A stretch of DNA of 25,125 nucleotides from a virus, in IMG/VR virus record IMGVR_UViG_3300025093_000112, positions 1-25,125 of that record; one strand, written 5' to 3'. The notes beneath the pieces are model-generated. The model was not told the origin of the DNA, ran no database searches, and saw nothing but the letters and a program-made list of their open reading frames with translations. The translations under genes and the position numbers were made by a program. Below are positions 2,707 to 19,444 of this stretch, in pieces (positions within the stretch are counted from its first letter, which is position 1; each line of letters begins with the position of its first letter).

Positions 2707-4376
2707 TTACATTAGTAACTGGTTTATGGGATATTGGTAGAGGTGATTTAAACGAGGGTTGGTCTAGATCATTCAACCACTATTTAGAAAAATTTTTAGA
2801 TTTATTAAAAGTTAAAAACAATATGATAATTTTTGGTGATCAAGAATTAAAAGATTTTGTTTTTAAATATCGTGACAAAAAAACAACACAATTTATATTA
2901 AGAGACATTAATTGGTTTAAAAATAATGAGTTCTATGACAAAATTCAAAAAATTAGAACTAACCCTTCTTGGTATAATCAAGTTGGGTGGCTAGGCGAAT
3001 CAACTCAGGCAAAATTAGAACTATACAATCCGCTTGTTATGTCTAAAATGTTCTTACTAAATGACGCAAAACTTTTAGATAAATTTGATTCAGACTTAAT
3101 GTATTGGATTGATGGTGGTATTACAAACACTGTAAATATTGGTTATTTTACAAATGATAATGTTTTAGATAAATTACCAAAATTATTAAATAATTTTTCA
3201 TTTATATGTTTTCCATATAAAGCGGAGAAAGAAGTTCATGGGTTTAACTATAAAAAAATGTGTGAACTATCTAACACAAAAACAAATATAGTTGCTAGAG
3301 GTGGTTTTTTTGGTGGTAATAAGGAATCGATTTCAGAAATGAACAACCTTTATTATAGCCTTATGTTAGAAACACTAAGTCAAGGTTATATGGGAACAGA
3401 AGAGTCTTTATTTACAATTTTATTACATTTATACCCAGAAATAATTAATTATTGTGAAATAGAATCAAATGGTTTAGTTTATAAATTTTTTGAAGATGTT
3501 AAAAACAATAAGTTAATAGTTAAAAACATTAATCAAAAAAAAATAGATTTTAAAAATCAAAATGGTGATGTTGGATTATATGTAATAACATTTAATTCAC
3601 CAAAACAATTTGAAACCCTAGTAAATTCTATGTTAGAATATGACTCAAATTTTTTAACTAATACAAAAAAGTTTTTACTAGACAACTCAACAGATTTAAG
3701 TACAACACCAAAATACAAAAGTCTTTGTGAAAAATATGATTTTAAACATATAAAAAAAGATAATATTGGTATAACAGGTGGTAGACAATTTATTGCAGAA
3801 CATTTTCACAATGAAGAAAATTTATCTTACTATTATTTCTTTGAAGACGATATGTTTTTTATTAAAAAAGAAAATCAAAGTACTTGTAAAAATGGTTTTA
3901 ATCGAAACGTAAAAGATTTATTTAAAAAATCTTTAAAGATAATAAAAAAAGAAAATTTTGATTTTTTAAAATTAAACTTTACTGAATTTTTTGGCTGCCA
4001 TACAACACAATGGGCGTGGTATAACACACCTCAAAATTTTAGAAAAAAACACTGGGTTAAAAAACCAAACTTACCAAAAACTGGATATGATCCAAATGCA
4101 CCAAACCTAGAGTTTAAAAATATAAAATCTTTAGATGGTATTGCTTATGCTAGTGGTGAGATTTATTTATCTAATTGGCCAATAGTTTTAAGTAAATTAG
4201 GTAACTATAATTGTTATATTAAAACAAAATTTAAAAATCCATATGAGCAGACACTAATGAGTCATTGTTTCCAAGAAACAATCAAGGGAAATATTAAACC
4301 AGGTTTATTATTATTAACGCCAACAGAACATACTAGATTTGATTTTTATCCATCTGAATTAAGAAAAGAATGTTAA
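2703..4376 (+). CDS. Two-domain glycosyltransferase (HtrL/YibB-like plus GT-A-like)
   Basis: This 557-residue protein appears to hold two catalytic modules. Residues 1 to about 270 resemble the HtrL/YibB (WlaTC) family: the start is TLVTGLWDIGRGD, then comes the signature KLELYNPLVMSKMFLL (about 104-119), YWIDGGI (about 134-140), RGGFFGG, and MGTEESLFTILLHLYP. Residues from about 285 to the end look like a second GT-A fold: a first strand GLYVITFNSP, then FLLDNSTD, GITGGRQFIAEHF, and YYFFEDDMFF, whose EDD is a plausible metal-binding site. The gene overlaps its upstream partner by four bases (ATGA), so the pair is co-translated. The two genes could build a two- or three-sugar chain. Sugar specificity cannot be read from the sequence. 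The N-terminal assignment is firmer than the C-terminal one. Confidence 0.75.
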   Translation: MITLVTGLWDIGRGDLNEGWSRSFNHYLEKFLDLLKVKNNMIIFGDQELKDFVFKYRDKKTTQFILRDINWFKNNEFYDKIQKIRTNPSWYNQVGWLGESTQAKLELYNPLVMSKMFLLNDAKLLDKFDSDLMYWIDGGITNTVNIGYFTNDNVLDKLPKLLNNFSFICFPYKAEKEVHGFNYKKMCELSNTKTNIVARGGFFGGNKESISEMNNLYYSLMLETLSQGYMGTEESLFTILLHLYPEIINYCEIESNGLVYKFFEDVKNNKLIVKNINQKKIDFKNQNGDVGLYVITFNSPKQFETLVNSMLEYDSNFLTNTKKFLLDNSTDLSTTPKYKSLCEKYDFKHIKKDNIGITGGRQFIAEHFHNEENLSYYYFFEDDMFFIKKENQSTCKNGFNRNVKDLFKKSLKIIKKENFDFLKLNFTEFFGCHTTQWAWYNTPQNFRKKHWVKKPNLPKTGYDPNAPNLEFKNIKSLDGIAYASGEIYLSNWPIVLSKLGNYNCYIKTKFKNPYEQTLMSHCFQETIKGNIKPGLLLLTPTEHTRFDFYPSELRKEC

Positions 4377-4382
4377 TTAATA

Positions 4383-4389
4383 TATTTAT
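4383..4389 (+). promoter_or_regulatory. TATTTAT promoter-like motif upstream of the 4403 start
   Basis: TATTTATATTAAAAACATTA sits immediately before ATG 4403, 13 bases from the box. It falls inside the extra codons that would be translated from ATG 4370, which favours 4403 as the true start. Confidence 0.45.
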
Positions 4390-4402
4390 ATTAAAAACAT
4401 TA

Positions 4403-4876
4403 ATGGAATTCTTTATCAAAAAAAACGCAACATTACCACTACTTAAAATGCAAGTTGTTAAAGATGGTAGAAGCACATATAATAATATGATGAATTTAAT
4501 TGAGTCTTCTGCAATATTTTTTTCTATGATTGATACTGAGACTGGTGTACCAAAAATAAACACTAGACCTGCTGGGATAACAAAAAAAACAATGATTGAC
4601 CCAGAAGCTAAAGACGAATATTATGTCTATTATCAGTTTACAAATACAGATACAAAAAAACCAGGAAGATATGAAGGACAATTTTTATTTAGAAGTGATG
4701 AAGGAACTTTAATTCTACCAATAAGAGAAAGTTTGTTTATTAATATTCAAGAAAGTTTTGTCGCAAACAATTTAGATTATGATAGTTGTTATACAATAGA
4801 ATTCCCTTGTTGTGTTACAACACCATCAAATTTTGTAACAACAACTACAACAACAATATGTTATCCTATAATATAA
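4403..4876 (+). CDS. BppU-like structural protein with a C-terminal Thr run
   Basis: The frame is open from ATG 4370 (168 residues). I prefer ATG 4403 (157 residues), because the first 11 codons are A/T-rich leader holding the promoter-like box and the product then starts MEFFIKKNATLPLL. The core resembles the Ig-like N-terminal domain of baseplate upper proteins (BppU): a hydrophobic strand, IFFSMIDTETGVPKIN, then EYYVYYQFTNTDT, PGRYEGQFLF, and a final strand LPIRESLFINIQ. The C-terminus carries six Thr residues in a row (DNA 4838-4855) between VTTPSNFV and ICYPII, close to Cys residues. The same Thr-run/CY pattern occurs in the tail sheath. Its role is probably virion surface or baseplate. 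The fold call is from memory. Confidence 0.5.
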   Translation: MEFFIKKNATLPLLKMQVVKDGRSTYNNMMNLIESSAIFFSMIDTETGVPKINTRPAGITKKTMIDPEAKDEYYVYYQFTNTDTKKPGRYEGQFLFRSDEGTLILPIRESLFINIQESFVANNLDYDSCYTIEFPCCVTTPSNFVTTTTTTICYPII

Positions 4877-7896: not shown

Positions 7897-8264
7897 GAAA
7901 ACTTTAAACCATCACTAGATAAGATATACCAATTACCTTCTAGAAATTGAAACTGTACACAAGAACCTTTTTCTAGAAGTAGTTCATCCCACTCTTCGTC
8001 AATTAAACCAGTATCAGACTTAACCAATGTTGTTGTTAGAGATTTAATTGTTATTTTTTCATTCTTTGTAGAATCTAGGGTTACTTCTGATGACTCAACA
8101 TCTTTTACAATGGCTAGAACTTCTTCACCTGTATTATATAAACTTTCTCTAACAATTTTTTTAATTTCTTTAGGTAGTTCTTTTGGTGGCTCTGTTGTTA
8201 CAATAGTTTTTGTTTGATATTTAACAACGTTTTTTCTTGGCGTTATGTTATCAACATTCATCAT
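7893..8264 (-). CDS. Hypothetical small beta-rich protein, distal gene of the neck operon
   Basis: I do not recognise a family for this 123-residue protein. Residues 1-40 are Lys/Pro/Thr-rich and probably flexible. The rest is acidic and beta-rich and ends SCVQFQFLEGNWYILSSDG. This final strand pattern (hydrophobic-x-x-G-N-W-Y-hydrophobic) resembles the cap strands of phage fibre or decoration proteins and the end of the 974 gene product. Its ATG overlaps the stop of the gp13-like gene (ATGA on the minus strand), so the two are co-translated and it may act in the neck or head-tail joint. A second ATG follows the first directly. Its stop overlaps the polymerase stop in the palindrome TTAA, with no terminator hairpin visible. 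Confidence 0.7.
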   Translation of the reverse strand: MMNVDNITPRKNVVKYQTKTIVTTEPPKELPKEIKKIVRESLYNTGEEVLAIVKDVESSEVTLDSTKNEKITIKSLTTTLVKSDTGLIDEEWDELLLEKGSCVQFQFLEGNWYILSSDGLKFS

Positions 8265-9385
8265 ATTACATAAATCTGTCTAGGCATCGCTCTAAACTTT
8301 AATTGTTTGTTTAAATTTTCAGCTAATAAAGCTTCTCTTTCCATTACTTTTTCAGGTTTTAATCTAGTAAGTCTTCCTTCAGCACCAGTTAAGTCCTCAA
8401 GTAATTTTGTCTTTTCATCTTTCGCTTCAGTAGCTAATGAAGTATAGTCCATTGTTAAGTCACCACCTTCACCAGTTTTTAAATTACCACTAAACTTACC
8501 TCTAACCTTAGATAGTGTTTCTTTACAATAAGCAATAAACCATTTTTTTACCCAGTTTTTTGCTGGATTATTTAAACTATACCAATCTAACTTATCATAA
8601 GGAACGTCAGATGGTAGTCTAATAATATCTGGATTGTCTGCTAAACATTTATCTCTATCGTCACCAGAATCGTAATACCAATACCAAACTCTACCTTGCA
8701 TTAATGTTGAGTTACCAAAATCAAATTTACCGCCAGGCGTGTTCATTAAGTGAATTGCTTTTTTACCTTCAGGTAATGCGGTAACTCTATATGTTAAATC
8801 TCCAGCAATTATCCTTCTTTGAATGTTTATCTCTTGCATTCTTAATAACATATCAAATGCGGGCATTAAAAAATAACTACCAGACAGGTTTCCCGTTTGA
8901 GCATAACCAGCTGGACCTGAAATCCCACCACCAGCAATACCACCAAAAGCCCAAGGGTCAAATAACATATTATTTAACTCTGCGGGTGTAAACCAAAGTA
9001 ATTCATTTAATTCTCGACCAGCAGGAATTTCATATATCTGTTGCCCAGGAACTAATTGAATATAGTCCTTTTTTAGTTCCCATTCACCTCCAGCTTGTAA
9101 CCCTACAATTTTTGAGTATGCATAAGTGTATCTATCTTCATAGTCTAAACTTCTTGTTGTAAAAGCTCTAGTTAAAGATTGTGTATCTAAATTTAAATTA
9201 TAAAGTGCTGTCCATTGTGACTCGGTTAACCAATCTTGTACGTGTTGTGAGTATTCGTCAATTGAAAATTCTAACAAAGTGTCCATTTGTTCTTCTTCCA
9301 ATTCAACACTTCTCAATGGAGCACCTAAAAGGTGTCTAACTTGTGTATATAACTTCGTTTTGTCTGGTTCATTTATAACTGGCAT
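8261..9385 (-). CDS. 13: Neck / head-completion protein, gp13-like
   Basis: The 374-residue product resembles the T4 gp13 neck protein family, which closes the filled head and joins it to the tail (T4 gp13 is 309 residues). Visible features are an acidic N-terminal helix set (residues 1-60), a beta section rich in aromatic residues, and the family-like C-terminal block: DWYSLNNPAKNWVKKWFIAYCKETL, then GKFSG, GDLTMDYTSLATEAKDEKTKLLEDL, and a final helix ENLNKQLKFRAMPRQIYVI. A Gly-rich insertion (AFGGIAGGGISGPAG, about 148-162) is not expected in T4. It is the first gene after a promoter-like box 14 bases upstream. The other neck genes (gp14/gp15-like) are about 4 kb away on the plus strand. 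The family call is from memory of the pattern. Confidence 0.7.
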   Translation of the reverse strand: MPVINEPDKTKLYTQVRHLLGAPLRSVELEEEQMDTLLEFSIDEYSQHVQDWLTESQWTALYNLNLDTQSLTRAFTTRSLDYEDRYTYAYSKIVGLQAGGEWELKKDYIQLVPGQQIYEIPAGRELNELLWFTPAELNNMLFDPWAFGGIAGGGISGPAGYAQTGNLSGSYFLMPAFDMLLRMQEINIQRRIIAGDLTYRVTALPEGKKAIHLMNTPGGKFDFGNSTLMQGRVWYWYYDSGDDRDKCLADNPDIIRLPSDVPYDKLDWYSLNNPAKNWVKKWFIAYCKETLSKVRGKFSGNLKTGEGGDLTMDYTSLATEAKDEKTKLLEDLTGAEGRLTRLKPEKVMEREALLAENLNKQLKFRAMPRQIYVI

Positions 9386-9415: not shown

Positions 9416-11512
9416 CTATTTAAGTATTCTTTGAATATCTTTTTTAAACCTATAATTTTTTGATAAATTGCGAATAACATCTTGAGGTATATTACCTCCA
9501 AGACCCTCAACACCATATTTTGAACCTAATGAATTAAACAAATCTATAATCTCTTTAGTTTTATCATCACCAATTAAAAATTCAACATATTCATCATAGT
9601 TTATTTCTGGGAACTTTATACTTCCTTTAATTGGTCCAACATCACCACCTTCTAGCTTTAATATTTTTGTTGAGAACCTAATTTGCATAGAGCCTAAACT
9701 TCTAGACTTGTTTGTATAACCATCTAACTTTAATATATTTTTTAATTTTTCTTTATCGTAATAATAAAGATTTATTTTAAAATCATTATCTGGAAGACCA
9801 AGTAACATCCCATCAATACCCTCTAAAGATTTTTCAATAAGATCCTCACCAATATTTACCAAATCATTATTACCACTATTAATTAATTTATATATTAAAT
9901 CTTTACTGTCTTTTGAAAAATCAATTAATTTTTGTTTATTATCCTCATCACCACCATAGTCTTTAATGTATGTATCAACAACGTTTCTAATATTTTTAAG
10001 TGTTGGTGCTTGTGAAGAATCTCTAATAATTTTACAAGAAATAGACTCATTACTTGGTGTTATCACATCATATGGTGTATCCAAAGATTCTGATAACTGA
10101 CCACCTAATAAACCAGAAACTAAAGCTTCAAAATCAAAACCTCTAGTTCTGCTTTTTATAAATCTTTGATAATAATTGTTAAATCTAAATCTAGTTCTTT
10201 CAGATGTGTTAGATAAATCTAAGGACATAAGTCCTTGTATTGTTCTATTAAAATTTAAACCTCTATCAATTTCTGCGGTTATAATATTATTAATTGCCAC
10301 ACTAGCAGCTTCAGCGTCTAAAGGTATTAGTCTAATTTTTTGTAACTCTCTATCCATAGCTTTTTTTAAATCTGGTTGTATTTCTTGATTTTCCTTTAAA
10401 ATAGTTAGATATGACTCCTTTAATGTTTTTTTAGTTTTAGACACAAATAAATCATTCACAAAGTCCCAATTTATATGATTCCAGAATTTTTTAATATATT
10501 CATCCCTTTTATTACGATATTTTAAGTAGTAAGCATGTTCCCACAAGTCTAACCCTAACAATGGATAACCACCACTTTTAACAACATTCATCAATGGGTT
10601 GTCTTGGTTTGGTGTTGACATAATCTTTAATTTATTATTTTTTGTTAAAACTAACCAAACCCAACCAGAACCAAACCTCTGTTTAGCAATATCATTAAAC
10701 TCGTCTTTTAATTTTTTTATATTACCATAATCATTTTTTATTTTTTCAAAAATTTCACCTTTTGGGTTTTGTTTTTTTGGTGATAACATTTTCCAAAATA
10801 AAGCGTGATTAAATGCGCCTCCAGCATTGTTTCTAACCTTGTCGTCATACCTACTAATTGATTTAATAATTTGTTCTAAATCAATATATTTATATTTCTT
10901 GTTTTTTAATTGGTCATTTAATTTTTTAACATATCCTTTATAGTGTTTGTTATAATGAATATTCATAGTTTCAGGATCTACAAATTGTTTCATAGCTGAA
11001 TAGGCATATGGTAATTTGTCAATACCAATTTTTTTCATTTCTAAAATTAAATCTTTTTTTAGTTCTTTTTTTTCAGTAAGGACTATTTGTTCTTTTAAAA
11101 GATTTAATTTATTGTTAATACCTTCATACATCATTTCTTCTTTTTCTGGGAAATTTTTTTCGAATTTTTTTATTAAAGAACCGGCTTCAGCGTTTGCTTC
11201 ATCCTCATTCTTACCACCAATATTAGGACCATGTTCTCTATTTAACACATTTATTTGATATTCGTGTACCCATTCGTGAGCTAAAGTCCTAATAACATCT
11301 CTATTTAATCTACCATTGGTTAAAATCTTTAATTCAGAATCGTTAGTTCTACTACCACTAGACATCCCACCAAATCTTTTACCAGTAAATGTGATTTTAA
11401 CATCATTATTTAAAGGGTACTTTTTGTTTAAAAAAACAATAAATTTTTTCATTAGACTCTTATCCTTATTAGATAAATCACACCCATTAATATAATTAAG
11501 AGAAACTTTCAT
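9416..11512 (-). CDS. Fusion: HEXXH metallopeptidase-like + Mn-type superoxide dismutase + possible PD-(D/E)XK nuclease-like domain
   Basis: The 698-residue protein has three recognisable parts. Residues about 1-120: a zincin-like domain with HEWVH at 79-83 and, after it, DEANAEAG with E105 or E109 as a possible third zinc ligand. Residues about 163-356: a full Fe/Mn superoxide dismutase, with HYNKHYKGY (metal His186, gateway Tyr194), NNAGGAFNHALFW (His236), SGWVWLVL, STPNQDNPL (Gln303, typical of Mn enzymes), and LDLWEHAYY (Asp322, His326). All four metal ligands are kept, and NNAGG plus the Gln position match Mn-type SodA. Residues about 385-698 are of unknown family. There, GFDFEALVSGLL, YDVI and ISCKII (E462, D482, K494) fit a PD-(D/E)XK-like layout, but weakly. 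One ORF spans all parts with no break. It has its own promoter-like box and lies between helicase and neck genes. SOD activity is well supported; the role of the fusion is unknown. Confidence 0.93.
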   Translation of the reverse strand: MKVSLNYINGCDLSNKDKSLMKKFIVFLNKKYPLNNDVKITFTGKRFGGMSSGSRTNDSELKILTNGRLNRDVIRTLAHEWVHEYQINVLNREHGPNIGGKNEDEANAEAGSLIKKFEKNFPEKEEMMYEGINNKLNLLKEQIVLTEKKELKKDLILEMKKIGIDKLPYAYSAMKQFVDPETMNIHYNKHYKGYVKKLNDQLKNKKYKYIDLEQIIKSISRYDDKVRNNAGGAFNHALFWKMLSPKKQNPKGEIFEKIKNDYGNIKKLKDEFNDIAKQRFGSGWVWLVLTKNNKLKIMSTPNQDNPLMNVVKSGGYPLLGLDLWEHAYYLKYRNKRDEYIKKFWNHINWDFVNDLFVSKTKKTLKESYLTILKENQEIQPDLKKAMDRELQKIRLIPLDAEAASVAINNIITAEIDRGLNFNRTIQGLMSLDLSNTSERTRFRFNNYYQRFIKSRTRGFDFEALVSGLLGGQLSESLDTPYDVITPSNESISCKIIRDSSQAPTLKNIRNVVDTYIKDYGGDEDNKQKLIDFSKDSKDLIYKLINSGNNDLVNIGEDLIEKSLEGIDGMLLGLPDNDFKINLYYYDKEKLKNILKLDGYTNKSRSLGSMQIRFSTKILKLEGGDVGPIKGSIKFPEINYDEYVEFLIGDDKTKEIIDLFNSLGSKYGVEGLGGNIPQDVIRNLSKNYRFKKDIQRILK

Positions 11513-11536: not shown

Positions 11537-13297
11537 TTATTGTGCGTTTATTAGTGATAAAATCTCTTCAACGACATCCGTTGAATTATTAACCTCGTCA
11601 CCCATAACTGTACCAATAACTTTTTTCTTATTATTTAGTATATCATAAACAACACCTTCTATTGTGTTTTCAAAAATTGGATAATATACCAACACATTGT
11701 TTTTCTGACCATATCTATATGCTCTATCTTCAGCTTGTGAGTGTTCAGCTGGCACAAATGACAAATCATTCATAATTACAGTTTCAGCTGAAGTTAAAGT
11801 TAAACCAACCCCTGCGGCTTTTAAATTACCAACAAAAACTTTTATTTTTTCGTTGTCTTGAAATTGGTCTACAGCATTTTGTCTTTGTATTTTATTACAA
11901 CTACCATCTAAATAGACGGCTTGTTTCCCAAAATGATTATATATTGTTTGTAGAGTATCAGTAAAGTTTGTAAAAATTATAACTTTTTTACCCTGATCAA
12001 TAATGTTTTCTACAAATTTTATTGTTTCTTTAACTTTTTCATTTGCAATTACTTTTCTAACTTTCATTAGTTTTGAGAATTGTATCGCTAAAGATGTCGA
12101 CTCTTCTTTTTTGTTTTTCAACCATTCATAGTATTCACCCATCAAGTCTTTATATTCTTTAGAATTTATTCTTAAATAAACAGGTGTTATTATTTTATCA
12201 GGTAAATCTAAAACATCTTCTTTTAATCTACGAAGAATTTGTTTTGAAGTTCTGTCTCTTAACTCTTCTAGGTTTGAAGCGCCAGTAACATTCCATATTT
12301 TTCTATTACCAGCCCTAAATTGGTATCCTTGACAATATCTAATAGCGTATGCCATCCAGTTTTGAGCAACAGGACTATCAATAATTTTTAATAAATTATA
12401 ATAGTTTATAGGTCTAGATGTCATTGGTGTACCAGTTAGTAACCAAACACGATTAATATTTTTTACAAAATCATTTACTATTTTTGTTCTTTGAGCTTGT
12501 GAATTTGAAATCATATGAGCTTCGTCTAGTATCACTAAATCAAATTTTGAATTTAATAAGTTTGAAGTATTTTTATCTTTTAAGTTGTGAAAGTTTTTTA
12601 GAATGTCATAATTTATTATTACAAAATCTTCATCATTTTCAGAATATTTTTTACCTTCACATATAAAACTAGGTCTATCAGTATAATTTTGAATCTCTCT
12701 TTGCCAGTTTATTTTAAGTGACGCTGGACAAATAATTAATATTTTTTTAGCGCCAGTTTCTAAAGCTGCAATAATTGTTGATGTTGTTTTACCAAGACCC
12801 ATATCATCGGCAAGTATAAACCTTTTAGAACCTGCCAACTTTTCAATGGACTCTATTTGATGTGATAGAGGAGGCCTATGGGAGTATTTAGAATAATCGA
12901 TATCAACCTTTTCTACTTTGTGTGTTTTAATTAAAGAAGATTTTGGAATCCAAAATTCAGACAAAACATCCTTATCAAAAAACTTACCCCATATGTGATA
13001 AGATTTTTCTCTTTCAACTAGTAACTTTTCAATATAAATTTTTTTAGGGGTTTCTAGAAGATACTTTTCTTTTGCAAATTTTTCACCAAAATAAGAATCT
13101 AAATCAACCCATTTACGAGCAACCTTTGGTTTTACATTATAATAATCAATAATATAGTTAGTTTGTGACCTAGTTGGATAGAAATTTTTATTTGAATCTT
13201 TTTTATTTTTAAGATATAGGATATAGTTATTAGCACCACTATAAGTGTCTAATAAATCTAATGCTTTGTGTTCTATTATTTTTTTTGGTTCTTCCAA
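11537..13297 (-). CDS. SNF2-family DNA helicase/translocase (SMARCAL1-like)
   Basis: This 586-residue superfamily 2 ATPase carries the SNF2 motifs in order: an HQ pair in PPLSHQIESIEKL (about 143-155), Walker A DDMGLGKT (164-171), motif Ia ILIICPASLKINWQREI, the DEAH box (258-261), motif III LTGTP (287-291), IIFTNFTDT (about 440-448), DGSCNKIQRQNAVDQF, GVGLTLT (496-502) and the arginine-finger motif QAEDRAYRYGQ (521-531). It therefore hydrolyses ATP to move on or remodel DNA. Compact SNF2 enzymes of this type rewind or regress forks, a job done in T4 by the unrelated-looking SF2 helicase UvsW. The first 140 residues are a phage-specific N-domain. The start is TTG (13295-13297): the three codons before it are not usable starts and a stop precedes them. 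Confidence 0.95.
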   Translation of the reverse strand: MEEPKKIIEHKALDLLDTYSGANNYILYLKNKKDSNKNFYPTRSQTNYIIDYYNVKPKVARKWVDLDSYFGEKFAKEKYLLETPKKIYIEKLLVEREKSYHIWGKFFDKDVLSEFWIPKSSLIKTHKVEKVDIDYSKYSHRPPLSHQIESIEKLAGSKRFILADDMGLGKTTSTIIAALETGAKKILIICPASLKINWQREIQNYTDRPSFICEGKKYSENDEDFVIINYDILKNFHNLKDKNTSNLLNSKFDLVILDEAHMISNSQAQRTKIVNDFVKNINRVWLLTGTPMTSRPINYYNLLKIIDSPVAQNWMAYAIRYCQGYQFRAGNRKIWNVTGASNLEELRDRTSKQILRRLKEDVLDLPDKIITPVYLRINSKEYKDLMGEYYEWLKNKKEESTSLAIQFSKLMKVRKVIANEKVKETIKFVENIIDQGKKVIIFTNFTDTLQTIYNHFGKQAVYLDGSCNKIQRQNAVDQFQDNEKIKVFVGNLKAAGVGLTLTSAETVIMNDLSFVPAEHSQAEDRAYRYGQKNNVLVYYPIFENTIEGVVYDILNNKKKVIGTVMGDEVNNSTDVVEEILSLINAQ

Positions 13298-15189: not shown

Positions 15190-18100
15190 ATGGCTACTAA
15201 TAGTAAAGTTTTTGTATCACCGGGTGTTTATACCTCAGAGGTTGATTTAAGCTTTGTTGCTCAGAGTGTTGGTGTTACAACATTAGGAATTGTAGGTGAA
15301 ACATTAAGAGGTCCAGCATTTGAACCTATTTTCATTAAGAATTTCGATGAGTTTCAAACTTATTTTGGAGGTACTTCGGTTGATAAATTTGTGAATACAC
15401 AAATTCCTAAATATGAGGCGGCATATATTGCTAAGTCTTATCTACAACAATCAAATCAATTGTTTGTAACTAGAGTTCTTGGTTTATCAGGTTACGATGC
15501 AGGACCATCTTGGTCAATTGTAACAAAAGCAAACTTAGATCCATCAACACTAAATTACAACTGTTTAAGTGGTATAACAGTTGACTGTGAACCAGTTTGT
15601 GTTGTTAAAAAAGAATTGTCTTTTAACGTACCATTTACAGCTTGTACTGACGACCCAACAAATGTAACATATTTAACTAACTTCCCTAGTGAAATTAATG
15701 ATATTAAAAATGCTGAATATGAAGAATTAGAAGGTGGTGTTAGCACACTTAATGACCAAATAAACGATATGGTTTCTGACGTGATAACAAGTTCTAACCC
15801 TAGTATGGCAGAAGATGAGGTTGTTTACTATTTTGGTGCAATACCACAAAGTGAATATACATATCTAAGTACTACTGGTTATACACAAGAAACCGATGTT
15901 TTTGGAATTCAAACAATTCCATTTGAAAGTTTAGACGTTGAGTCACCAAACAATGACGCTTGGTTTTATGCGTTATTTAATAATAATGGTGGTGGTTCTT
16001 ATAGTGGTTACTCATTCTTTACAACTGTAACTAGTTTAACAAATATAAACCCGGTAACCACAACTACAACAACTGTAGCACCAACAACAACTACTACAAC
16101 TACAGACCCTTGTGTTACACCAACTCCAACAACTACTACAACAACTACAGCACCTGTTGTCGTTGATTGTTATTCTGGAAATGTAACAGGTATCATATAT
16201 TACTATACCGGTACATCATACACACAGTTTGATGACTTAGTAGTAACAACATTAAGATCTAGAGGTATTTCAACTTATAGTAACGAAGTAAACCCATTAT
16301 TAGAAATAACAGGTGTAACTGATGTTACTTTAGATATGACAGGTCAATATGAAGATGCACTTAAAAATCCATTTGCAACATTTGGAATAAATGCGACAAA
16401 CACAAGTGGTACTGAATTTGACTTTGAAGTATCTTTAGGTTCAAATTCATCTAAGAGTGTTAATAAAGTATTTGGTAAGAGTAACTTTAGTAAACCTAGA
16501 TTAGAAAACCCATTAATGGTTGAAGAATCTTTCTTAACATTATTGAATTACGCTTGGAACAAAGGGTATATTAAAGGGTTAAGTTCTGAATTAGTAACAA
16601 CTGAAGGAGCTCAAGCTAATGATTCAAGTACTATAGGTTGGTATCTAGATAGATTCCAAACACCAGAAACACCATGGATTGTATCTGAAGTTAGAGGTAA
16701 TAAAGTATTTGATTTATTTAAAATATATAGTATATCTGATGGTAATTCAGCAAACACACAAATAAAAGTTTCTGTTGCAGATATATCATTTAATAATTTA
16801 ACATTTACATTATTAATTAGAGATTACTTTGATACTGACGCAAATCCAGTTGTACTTGAGAAATTCTCAAATTGTTCAATGGATCCACAAGAAAATAACT
16901 ATGTTGCTAAAAAAGTTGGAACATTAGATGGTGAATTTACAGTAAATTCTAAATTTATATTACTAGATGTTAACTACGAGGCACCAATAGACGCGTTACC
17001 TTGTGGATTTAAAGGTTACTCATTTAGAGAGTATCCAGGAAGTAGATCACCATTCCCAGTTTACAAAACTAAATATGATAGAGCTGGTGAAATTGTTTAT
17101 AACCCACCATTTGGTTTATCTAATGGTTTAGATGATGCGTTTACTAGTCCAGGTGATAATGTTAGAAAAACTTACCTTGGTATATCATCATTCTGGGGTT
17201 ACGATAGTGACTTCTTCCAATATAAAGGAAAAAGAAAACCATTAGACCTTTGTACAGGTGAAGGTTTTGTATGGGACTTTGTTACAAAAGGTTTCCATAT
17301 GGACCAAAACGCTAGTGGAATTACAATAAACGATGGTTACACATCATCAGGTGAAACAGCTTACGAAGTTGGTGACGCTAGCTTCTCATCAGAACCAACA
17401 AATCCAAGTAACCCATACTATAGATTAAATTCTAGAAAATTCAATGTTATGGTCTATGGTGGTTTTGATGGTTGGGACATCTACAGAGAGTATAGAACCA
17501 ATGGTGATAGATTTGCTTTAGGTAGATCAGGATTCTTAAATGGTGCTTGTCCTTCGACTAGATTCCCTAACGGAAAAGGAAATGGATTATTTAAACAAAT
17601 AGCTATTGGTGATGGAACTATAGAATATGGTAACACAGATTACTATGCTTATCTATTAGGTCAAAGAACATTTGACAACCCTGAGGCTGTTAATATTAAT
17701 GTTTTTGTAACACCAGGTATTGATTTAGTAAATAACTCAAACCTAGTTGAGTCTGCTATAGATATGGTAGAAACCGAAAGAGCGGATTCATTATATGTTG
17801 CAACAATACCAGATTATAACTTATTCTTACCAACAACAACAGGTCAAGATGGATTAATTTACCCACAAGAAGCTGTTGATAATTTAGAAGAAACTGGTAT
17901 TGACTCAAACTATACTGCGACTTACTACCCTTGGGTATTGACAAGAGATAGTGTTAATAATACACAAATTTATATTCCAGCGACAGCTGAAGTAACTAGA
18001 AACTTAGCCTTAACGGATAATGTTGCGTTCCCATGGTTTGCAGCGGCTGGTTATACTAGAGGTATTGTTAATTCAGTTAAAGCACGTAAGAAGTTAACAC

Positions 18101-18525
18101 AAGAAGATAGAGACGTTCTATATCTTGGTAGAATAAACCCAATTGCAACTTTTGCAGATGTAGGAACTGTAATCTGGGGTAATAAAACTCTACAAGTTAG
18201 AGAGTCAGCACTTGATAGAATCAATGTTAGAAGACTATTACTACAGGCACGTAAATTAATATCTGCGGTTTCTGTTAGGTTGTTATTCGATCAAAATGAT
18301 CAACAAGTTAGACAAGACTTCTTAAATGCAGTTAACCCAATATTAGACGCAATTAGAAGAGATAGAGGATTGATTGACTTTAGAGTAACGGTATCAAATG
18401 ATACAGAAGATTTGGATAAAAACCAGTTAGTTGGTAAAATTTATATAAAACCAACAAAATCACTAGAGTTTATTGATATAACATTCTTTATTACACCAAC
18501 AGGTGCGTCATTTGAGGATGTATAA
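15190..18525 (+). CDS. 18: Contractile tail sheath protein, gp18-like, with large Thr-run insertion
   Basis: This subunit forms the outer contractile tube that drives infection. The N-terminus VFVSPGVYTSEVDLSFVAQSVGVTTLGIVGETLRGPAFEP (split here only for reading) is classic sheath, giving strand swap, then the GxxGxxxxGP segment. The C-terminal domain is also classic: LLQARKLISAVSVRLLFDQND, then FLNAVNPILDAIRRDRGL, LVGKIYIKPTKSLEFIDITFFITPTG. At 1111 residues it is about 450 longer than T4 gp18 (659). The extra mass sits roughly between residues 120 and 700 and includes a linker with three Thr runs (residues 290-295, 299-305, 314-320) broken by Pro, Ala and Cys. The insertion domains should lie on the outer tail surface. 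It is led by its own promoter-like box and followed by a strong terminator, so it is probably a single-gene, high-level transcript. Confidence 0.97.
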   Translation: MATNSKVFVSPGVYTSEVDLSFVAQSVGVTTLGIVGETLRGPAFEPIFIKNFDEFQTYFGGTSVDKFVNTQIPKYEAAYIAKSYLQQSNQLFVTRVLGLSGYDAGPSWSIVTKANLDPSTLNYNCLSGITVDCEPVCVVKKELSFNVPFTACTDDPTNVTYLTNFPSEINDIKNAEYEELEGGVSTLNDQINDMVSDVITSSNPSMAEDEVVYYFGAIPQSEYTYLSTTGYTQETDVFGIQTIPFESLDVESPNNDAWFYALFNNNGGGSYSGYSFFTTVTSLTNINPVTTTTTTVAPTTTTTTTDPCVTPTPTTTTTTTAPVVVDCYSGNVTGIIYYYTGTSYTQFDDLVVTTLRSRGISTYSNEVNPLLEITGVTDVTLDMTGQYEDALKNPFATFGINATNTSGTEFDFEVSLGSNSSKSVNKVFGKSNFSKPRLENPLMVEESFLTLLNYAWNKGYIKGLSSELVTTEGAQANDSSTIGWYLDRFQTPETPWIVSEVRGNKVFDLFKIYSISDGNSANTQIKVSVADISFNNLTFTLLIRDYFDTDANPVVLEKFSNCSMDPQENNYVAKKVGTLDGEFTVNSKFILLDVNYEAPIDALPCGFKGYSFREYPGSRSPFPVYKTKYDRAGEIVYNPPFGLSNGLDDAFTSPGDNVRKTYLGISSFWGYDSDFFQYKGKRKPLDLCTGEGFVWDFVTKGFHMDQNASGITINDGYTSSGETAYEVGDASFSSEPTNPSNPYYRLNSRKFNVMVYGGFDGWDIYREYRTNGDRFALGRSGFLNGACPSTRFPNGKGNGLFKQIAIGDGTIEYGNTDYYAYLLGQRTFDNPEAVNINVFVTPGIDLVNNSNLVESAIDMVETERADSLYVATIPDYNLFLPTTTGQDGLIYPQEAVDNLEETGIDSNYTATYYPWVLTRDSVNNTQIYIPATAEVTRNLALTDNVAFPWFAAAGYTRGIVNSVKARKKLTQEDRDVLYLGRINPIATFADVGTVIWGNKTLQVRESALDRINVRRLLLQARKLISAVSVRLLFDQNDQQVRQDFLNAVNPILDAIRRDRGLIDFRVTVSNDTEDLDKNQLVGKIYIKPTKSLEFIDITFFITPTGASFEDV
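16057..16149 (+). repeat. ACA/ACT low-complexity tract encoding Thr runs in the sheath
   Basis: This stretch is built from ACA and ACT codons giving runs of 6, 7 and 7 Thr, separated by VAP and DPCVTPTP. It resembles an O-glycosylated mucin-like linker. Length may vary by slippage. Confidence 0.75.
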
Positions 18526-18595: not shown

Positions 18596-19444
18596 ATGAA
18601 CTACAAAAAAATAACAAGAGAAATAATCACAGAAATAATTAATGATAGTAGAACTCCTGTTATGAAGTACTATGCTTTTGATTGGGATGACAATCTAATG
18701 TTTATGCCAACTAAAATTTATTTAAAAGATGATGAAGGTAAAAGCGTAGGTATGTCAACTGAAGATTTCGCAGAATATAGAACTAAAATTGGTGAAGAAG
18801 ATTTTGAATATGAAGGACATAATATAGTAGGTTTTGACGATGACCCATTTAAAGATTTTAGAGTAACTGGTGATGACAAGTTTTTAAGAGACTCTATGAA
18901 AGCAAAGACTGGACCTGCATGGTCTGACTTTGTTGAAGCAATTAATAATGGTTCAATCTTCTCAATTATAACCGCTAGAGGCCACACACCATCAGTAATT
19001 AAAAAGGCGGTACATAATCTAATAAAGAAAAATATGCATGGTTTGGATTCAAATAAACTAGCGAAAAACCTTTTAAAATATAGAGAGTTAGCTGATGAAG
19101 ACAAATTAACTAAAGAGCAGTTAATTCAAAGTTATTTAGATATGTGTAGATTTTATCCTGTTTCATTTGGGGAAGGTTCCGCGACAAATCCAGAACAAGG
19201 CAAAATTGATGCTATGGAAGAGTTTATAAACTATGTTAAATTAATGTCAAATAATTTACAAAAGAAAGCATTTATGAAAAACAAAATAAGTAATTATTTT
19301 ACACCTTTTGTTGGATTTTCAGATGACGATATAAGAAATGTTGAAAAGATGAAATCACATTTTGAAAAGAAAGATGATAATATATTACAAACTTATTTAA
19401 CCGCAGGAGGTGAAAAGAAGTTATATGAATATATTTATAAGTAA
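18596..19444 (+). CDS. HAD-like hydrolase/phosphatase
   Basis: The 282-residue product shows the four landmarks of the haloacid dehalogenase superfamily. Motif I is FDWDDN (D29 nucleophile, D31 acid/base), motif II is IITARGH (T126), the motif III Lys is likely in EQGKIDAM (about K203), and motif IV is GFSDDDIRN (D243-D245). It is therefore probably an Mg-dependent phosphatase acting in the cytoplasm. The insert between motif I and II (about residues 40-115) is acidic and unlike T4 polynucleotide kinase-phosphatase. No kinase domain is present, so it is not a full Pnk homologue. It lies between sheath and tube genes with its own promoter-like box and a terminator before it. Substrate is not readable from the sequence. 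Nucleotide, sugar-phosphate and protein substrates are all possible. Confidence 0.78.
   Translation: MNYKKITREIITEIINDSRTPVMKYYAFDWDDNLMFMPTKIYLKDDEGKSVGMSTEDFAEYRTKIGEEDFEYEGHNIVGFDDDPFKDFRVTGDDKFLRDSMKAKTGPAWSDFVEAINNGSIFSIITARGHTPSVIKKAVHNLIKKNMHGLDSNKLAKNLLKYRELADEDKLTKEQLIQSYLDMCRFYPVSFGEGSATNPEQGKIDAMEEFINYVKLMSNNLQKKAFMKNKISNYFTPFVGFSDDDIRNVEKMKSHFEKKDDNILQTYLTAGGEKKLYEYIYK

Follow-up and report, generated by a model that had tools for sequence, protein, structure and literature searches.

A phage gene joining zincin-fold, manganese-type superoxide dismutase and restriction-endonuclease-like domains: a probable cargo polyprotein of the phage head

The locus and its relatives

The window analysed here, a stretch of 25,125 nucleotides of viral DNA (positions 1 to 25,125 of IMG/VR record IMGVR_UViG_3300025093_000112), carries on its minus strand a gene whose product consists of three folded domains joined by two linkers (Table 1). 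The original prediction of a single unbroken reading frame of 698 codons is borne out, since no internal stop codon occurs between 11512 and 9416, and so is the placement of the gene between an SNF2 helicase gene and a neck gene, both of which also lie on the minus strand.

Table 1. Positions in the window of the polyprotein gene, its parts and its two neighbours.
Feature	Position	Strand	Remarks
Complete cargo polyprotein ORF (putative)	9416..11512	minus	698 aa; stop codon 9416-9418
N-terminal zincin-fold domain (predicted)	11129..11512	minus	residues 1-128; HEWVH 79-83; candidate third ligand E103 or E105
Linker 1	11024..11128	minus	residues 129-163; tag-like helix; conserved [LI]xE at E141, E147, E158
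Mn-type superoxide dismutase domain	10445..11023	minus	residues 164-356
Linker 2	10373..10444	minus	residues 357-380; [LI]xE at E366 and E374, spacing 8 residues
C-terminal restriction-endonuclease-like (PD-(D/E)XK-like) domain (predicted)	9419..10372	minus	residues 381-698; E462, D482, K494
Head-tail adaptor / neck gene (PHROG 211)	8261..9385	minus	directly downstream, ~30 nt gap
SNF2-family helicase gene	11537..13297	minus	upstream of polyprotein ORF

As to a frameshift or chimeric join inside the frame, comparison with the relatives found the ORF intact. Relatives of the polyprotein are encoded on at least 243 viral-contig stretches (a profile of the N-terminal domain matches 396 stretches), and independent contigs carry full-length ORFs that are 62-71% identical to the window protein. 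At all 74 loci that could be tested the neck gene begins 21-58 nt downstream, and at 79 of 79 the SNF2 gene is found upstream in the same orientation (immediately upstream in 67). The polyprotein gene is under purifying selection, with a dN/dS of about 0.05 between the window gene and its nearest relative. Because relatives occur on this many stretches, with synteny kept, selection acting and the active-site residues of the superoxide dismutase invariant, an assembly artefact in the form of a chimera or frameshift is ruled out. No direct match to the same architecture was found in named phages. Elsewhere in the window, positions 15190-18525 code for a tail sheath protein of 1111 amino acids with threonine-rich low-complexity stretches (TTTTTTVAPTTTTTTT), and the ORF at 4370-4876 ends in a run similar to these stretches.

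The three domains

The middle part of the protein had been described as a complete Mn-type superoxide dismutase (SOD), and this description holds in full. The Pfam pair PF00081/PF02777 exceeds its curated cut-offs by far, with Sod_Fe_N at residues 164-244 (E 1.6e-20) and Sod_Fe_C at residues 250-354 (E 2.7e-39), and among solved structures the domain comes nearest to MnSODs (6gsc, E 1e-59). The metal ligands His186, His236, Asp322 and His326, the gateway residue Tyr194 and Gln303 are all in place and, like the Glu and Tyr of the dimer interface (325, 329), conserved without exception in the 61 distinct relatives. As judged from the sequence, the domain is beyond doubt a member of the Fe/Mn superoxide dismutases and a predicted enzyme, which is assigned to the Mn type because of Gln303. 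In the phylogenetic tree the phage SODs form a single clade (support 100/100) among the MnSODs of Bacteroidota, to which the domain is 44-55% identical.

The N-terminal domain, originally called metallopeptidase-like, adopts a zincin fold in the predicted model of residues 1-165 (pLDDT 87.5), with HEWVH at residues 79-83 and linker 1 forming a single helix. The model matches M1 aminopeptidases, YbeY and Wss1 in VIA-align (Z up to 9.6), while Foldseek gives only weak matches (no E below 0.001), Pfam a sub-threshold SprT-like match and nothing confident, and a PDB sequence search with the N-domain profile no match. HExxH is invariant in 35 of 35 relatives, as are both E103 and E105, and the model supports a zincin with HExxH and a candidate third ligand.

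The C-terminal domain (model of residues 381-698, pLDDT 78, with linker 2 at low confidence) was predicted to be nuclease-like, and its model indeed finds hardly any matches other than type II restriction endonucleases. These enzymes occupy ranks 1-10 in Foldseek, and all VIA rows are either restriction endonucleases or Holliday junction resolvases, the best match being 3ndh with a moderate Z of 8.4 over 163 residues, followed by NhoI, Eco15I, HinP1I, PvuII and others. A restriction-endonuclease-like core fold is therefore supported by the model, and Pfam gives no confident match for the nuclease domain. As to the proposed PD-(D/E)XK-like core, all of 15 sequences retain E462, D482 and K494, but the lysine stands in SCK instead of a (D/E)xK arrangement, the residue two positions before K494 being Ser and not Asp, Glu or Gln, so that the putative nuclease active site appears atypical.

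A view on the first 80 relatives, whose loci include many near-copies and are not independent, shows that zincin and SOD are constant, and that the C-terminal part is of type a (the type of the window protein) at 19 loci, of type b at 18, of type c at 23 and of a short type d at 3, is absent at 16 and is cut by the contig end at one. Types b and c carry motifs of the PD-(D/E)XK type (GQD...QVKP and FEVKK, respectively) and may on this reading of the sequences be nucleases of that class; as the C-domains of types a, b and c were not unified by profile-profile comparison of shallow alignments, a nuclease nature common to the three rests, for b and c, on motifs, not on homology. A PDB sequence search with a type-b profile gave no match. 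All four types also occur as separate tagged ORFs (type d in the form of homologues): the standalone nucleases of types a, b and c consist of the core preceded by MENIYYTIAEQKMEKLSHVLNE, MKYIFTESQLDILKNKILINED and MKIIISESQ..., respectively, and the standalone homologues of type d begin with MKIIITEN... and MKELIRHIIKEE....

At two loci with a tagged standalone type-a nuclease (L256:2423-4547 and L254:2423-4954), a gene for an N6/N4 DNA methylase is located about 0.3-0.7 kb downstream, and each of these may possibly represent a packaged restriction-modification pair. Such a pairing was not seen at other standalone loci and is not claimed as a rule.

The linkers as probable capsid-targeting tags

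Both linkers are marked by conserved [LI]xE sites. In a set of 32 relatives with less than 85% identity, the motif is found at E141 in 31, at E147 in 26, at E158 in 31, at E366 in 26 and at E374 in 18 sequences, and all five columns in which more than half of the sequences have it fall inside the two linkers. Its density per 100 residues is 8.4 and 5.7 in the linkers, compared to 0.6 in the two folded domains, which contain fewer sites than their composition predicts; a random draw of columns would place all five columns in the linkers with a chance of about 2e-4, the linker limits having been set after the alignment was seen. The motif is short and common; E325 in the active site of the SOD belongs to one further copy and the nuclease contains a few more, all of them presumably buried.

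The linker sequences are also found as N-termini of other proteins. SOD proteins without zincin begin with MEKKLELLKETILIGESLLTEAKKIGIDKLPY, which is linker 1, and at L237, where a type b nuclease is joined to one of type a, the sequence at the join is ITENMNSTIIITKEQAQIMNFLISED, i.e., the whole tag including its start Met, in frame. A 304-kb relative (G001; L095-L110) contains 30 ORFs with an N-terminal tag in which two [LI]xE sites are 8 or 13 residues apart (e.g., MKKVIRLTESDLTRIVKRVINEN and MNLQESIRRILREE); for internal control windows of the same length the count averages 1.7 and does not exceed 5. A looser rule yields 49 ORFs, with scaffold and capsid proteins among them. The tagged ORFs, from the 30 strict to the 49 loose ones, lie mostly within the first 116 kb of G001, and a Pfam scan of 41 tagged proteins left almost all without a match, the few exceptions including DUF6576, RE_MjaI and EF-hand. 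No paper with these tag sequences was found in the open-licence literature.

Some further proteins show related features. A tagged protein of 536 amino acids in the same relative (G001:42375-43985; L097:4375-5985) contains two repeated units of about 150 amino acids, preceded by LKEESN and ITESTS, and is apparently another cargo polyprotein. In a zincin-SOD protein at L051:5995-7863, the C-terminus is made up of two small tandem units with ITES or ITEN before each. A conserved late-cluster protein, encoded at window positions 18596-19444 and at G001:214321-215220, starts with MNYKKITREIITE and MNYSVLTRQIIKEMVNE, respectively; the protein contains behind the tag what we read as a HAD-phosphatase-like motif (YYAFDWDDNL), has no Pfam match and is likely another tagged cargo enzyme.

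In T4, the prohead protease gp21 cuts after L/I-X-E, and foreign proteins including EcoRI and staphylococcal nuclease have been packed via the T4 CTS (PMC9026906). The contigs of the relatives encode an S77 prohead protease in three cases and a gp23-type MCP in four, with G001 included. Neither gene was seen in the window contig, which at 25 kb is too short to tell. The MCP of the relatives contains a conserved LINE|AT in its N-terminal region, where the T4 propeptide ends. In G001, a short reverse-strand ORF, bS21-like by our own reading, is located just ahead of the prohead protease gene (G1_205), and such an order of bS21 and protease genes has been described for bS21 phages of freshwater Bacteroidetes (PMC9723584). 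The arrangement in G001 is that of the bS21 phages and the position of the SOD clade among Bacteroidota MnSODs fits the same host, which is probably a freshwater member of the Bacteroidota.

Proposed route of the polyprotein and competing explanations

With the domains, their catalytic residues, the motifs, the protease and MCP of the relatives and the exchange between linkers and tags as the observed basis, the protein is probably a cargo polyprotein that is packed into the prohead and cleaved there, after which zincin, SOD and nuclease leave the head together with the DNA; we infer from this basis the packaging, the cleavage and the ejection as well as the activities of the enzymes and their role in infection. 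Tagged cargo genes would have been fused in frame with their tags included, and both linkers would be internal copies of capsid-targeting tags, which would co-assemble with the scaffold core and draw the polyprotein into the prohead of a large freshwater phage with a T4-type head. Inside the prohead, the S77 (gp21-type) protease would cut after [L/I]-x-E and generate a zincin of residues ~1-141, a dimeric Mn-SOD of residues ~159-366 and a restriction-endonuclease-like nuclease of residues ~375-698. The freed enzymes would stay packaged beside the DNA and be ejected with it into the host, where the SOD most likely serves to remove superoxide in the newly infected aerobic cell and may protect phage DNA and metalloenzymes during take-over, while the zincin may act on host proteins and the interchangeable nuclease probably on host or rival DNA.

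The original view of one multidomain protein stands with regard to the three domains, but a chain of individual cargo enzymes that is meant to be cut apart is more likely than a single stable protein. Relatives may lack the zincin or the nuclease or have another domain in its place. The packaged and injected role that had also been suggested now has independent sequence support from the linker tags and their [LI]xE sites. Since the tags of the window protein are internal and the proven T4 CTS is N-terminal, the entry of the zincin into the head stays conjecture. Beyond the single protein, we lean towards a general loading of the head by tags, covering dozens of proteins and including cleavable polyproteins, by which a single virion would bring a redox enzyme into the host along with a protease and an interchangeable nuclease of the restriction type.

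It is rather unlikely that the window protein is of the polyvalent type and is cut at its linkers by its own zincin in place of the prohead protease, be it ahead of packaging or once injected. No domain is more common in polyvalent proteins than the zincin, for which a part in their processing has been proposed (PMC5512222), and the relatives of the window protein all keep HExxH and both Glu candidates for the third ligand; however, the same linkers are kept in SOD proteins and nucleases that have no zincin, and the motif suits the S77 protease and the propeptide site of the MCP. An uncut three-domain late protein with plain flexible linkers and a function in the cell or the neck region, e.g., as a tethered antioxidant and nuclease that processes DNA during packaging, would fit the constant position of the gene directly before the head-tail adaptor gene and the single helix that linker 1 forms in the N-domain model. 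This explanation appears improbable, because plain linkers would neither match nor swap with the N-terminal tags of unrelated ORFs, and we know of no reason why they should. Furthermore, about one fifth of the first 80 relatives have no C-domain and others no zincin, so that a fixed three-part machine is not needed. An ordinary auxiliary metabolic gene, i.e., a host-derived SOD that limits oxidative stress in infection and is only incidentally fused, is very unlikely despite its kinship with the Bacteroidota MnSODs and the existence of standalone phage SODs, given the late-gene surroundings, the conserved tags, the single phage clade and the repeated fusion to different nucleases.

If the proposed delivery by the head is correct, it would be the first demonstrated case of a phage injecting a superoxide dismutase. 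Antioxidant enzymes would then reach bacteria at the first moment of infection, and the part that superoxide plays in phage attack and in defence would be open to direct tests. The tag rule may be employed as a simple predictor of head cargo in uncultured jumbo phages, with 30 to ~50 candidates in one genome, and most of the predicted head cargo in G001 consists of proteins without an assigned function. Natural polyproteins with exchangeable nucleases would also provide a ready design for placing several enzymes in one capsid.

Relation to known systems

Among isolated phages, a convincing SOD of their own was found only in PA5oct with its relatives and in Vibrio phage 2.275.O. Most "phage" records whose SOD exceeds 40% identity seem to be unannotated or bacterial sequence, and MW462191 was rejected as a phage SOD on account of its bacterial-type gene neighbourhood. 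The SODs of PA5oct and Vibrio phage 2.275.O resemble that of the window protein in belonging to the Fe/Mn-SOD family and in coming from jumbo phages with S77 protease and gp23-type MCP (both encoded in these two phages, which were the ones tested), but they are single-domain proteins of ~24-29% identity without zincin or nuclease. The PA5oct protein (EST35_0261) begins with MNDSIKKYISIAE|AASSVKKIPIPY, with AASS directly after the bar, and is annotated with ESI-MS/MS, a note that the record also gives to its portal, capsid, sheath and "structural" proteins. As metabolic enzymes such as thymidylate synthase also carry this note, the preparation may not have been pure virions, and the annotation is a hint and no proof that the PA5oct SOD is a virion protein. 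The SOD of Vibrio phage 2.275.O (NVP2275O_049; L083:4968-5537) ends in LDESVNIRHLINFISK, which is possibly a C-terminal cleavage tag.

Vaccinia A45 (PMC9282662) likewise represents an SOD-family protein in a virus particle, alongside redox effectors, but it is a Cu-Zn SOD homologue of an unrelated fold from an animal virus; related homologues of leporipoxviruses are reported as catalytically inert, according to a title cited in the same paper. The open-licence literature yielded no paper with three or more of the SOD-phage phrases searched for, and no report of an SOD among T4-type internal proteins or polyvalent proteins.

The polyvalent proteins (PMC5512222), such as P1 DdrB and the virion RNAP of N4, also combine unrelated enzymatic domains, often including a zincin, in one polypeptide, and their predicted route is by packaging and injection; superoxide and SOD are absent from the main text of that paper. 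Pfam found no ArdC-N, LPD, ParB or other polyvalent domain in the window protein, and its domains differ from those of polyvalent proteins in being separated by prohead-protease-like sites. In the ejection or inner-body proteins of the giant phages SPN3US and phiKZ (PMC5694885, PMC9026906), a gp21-like protease removes propeptides after Glu and a large protein cargo is ejected with the DNA, but the motif is A-X-E or S/A-X-E, the propeptides are mostly long, the phages belong to another lineage and the cargo is different, e.g., a virion RNA polymerase.

The internal head proteins of T4 (IPI-IPIII and Alt; PMC9026906) share with the window protein and its relatives the S77 protease family, the L/I-X-E motif, the type of capsid protein, a tag that precedes the cargo and the presence of several cargo proteins in each phage. 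Ahead of the SOD and again ahead of the nuclease, a short tag with L/I-X-E at its end is conserved. The T4 CTS is N-terminal, whereas the tag of the window protein is internal behind the zincin and becomes N-terminal in the relatives without zincin; the window protein would therefore work like a T4 internal head protein without being a standard member of the group. Further differences are that several enzymes are strung together, that the cargo consists of SOD, zincin and swappable restriction-endonuclease-like nucleases, and that relatives of the window phage tag dozens of genes.
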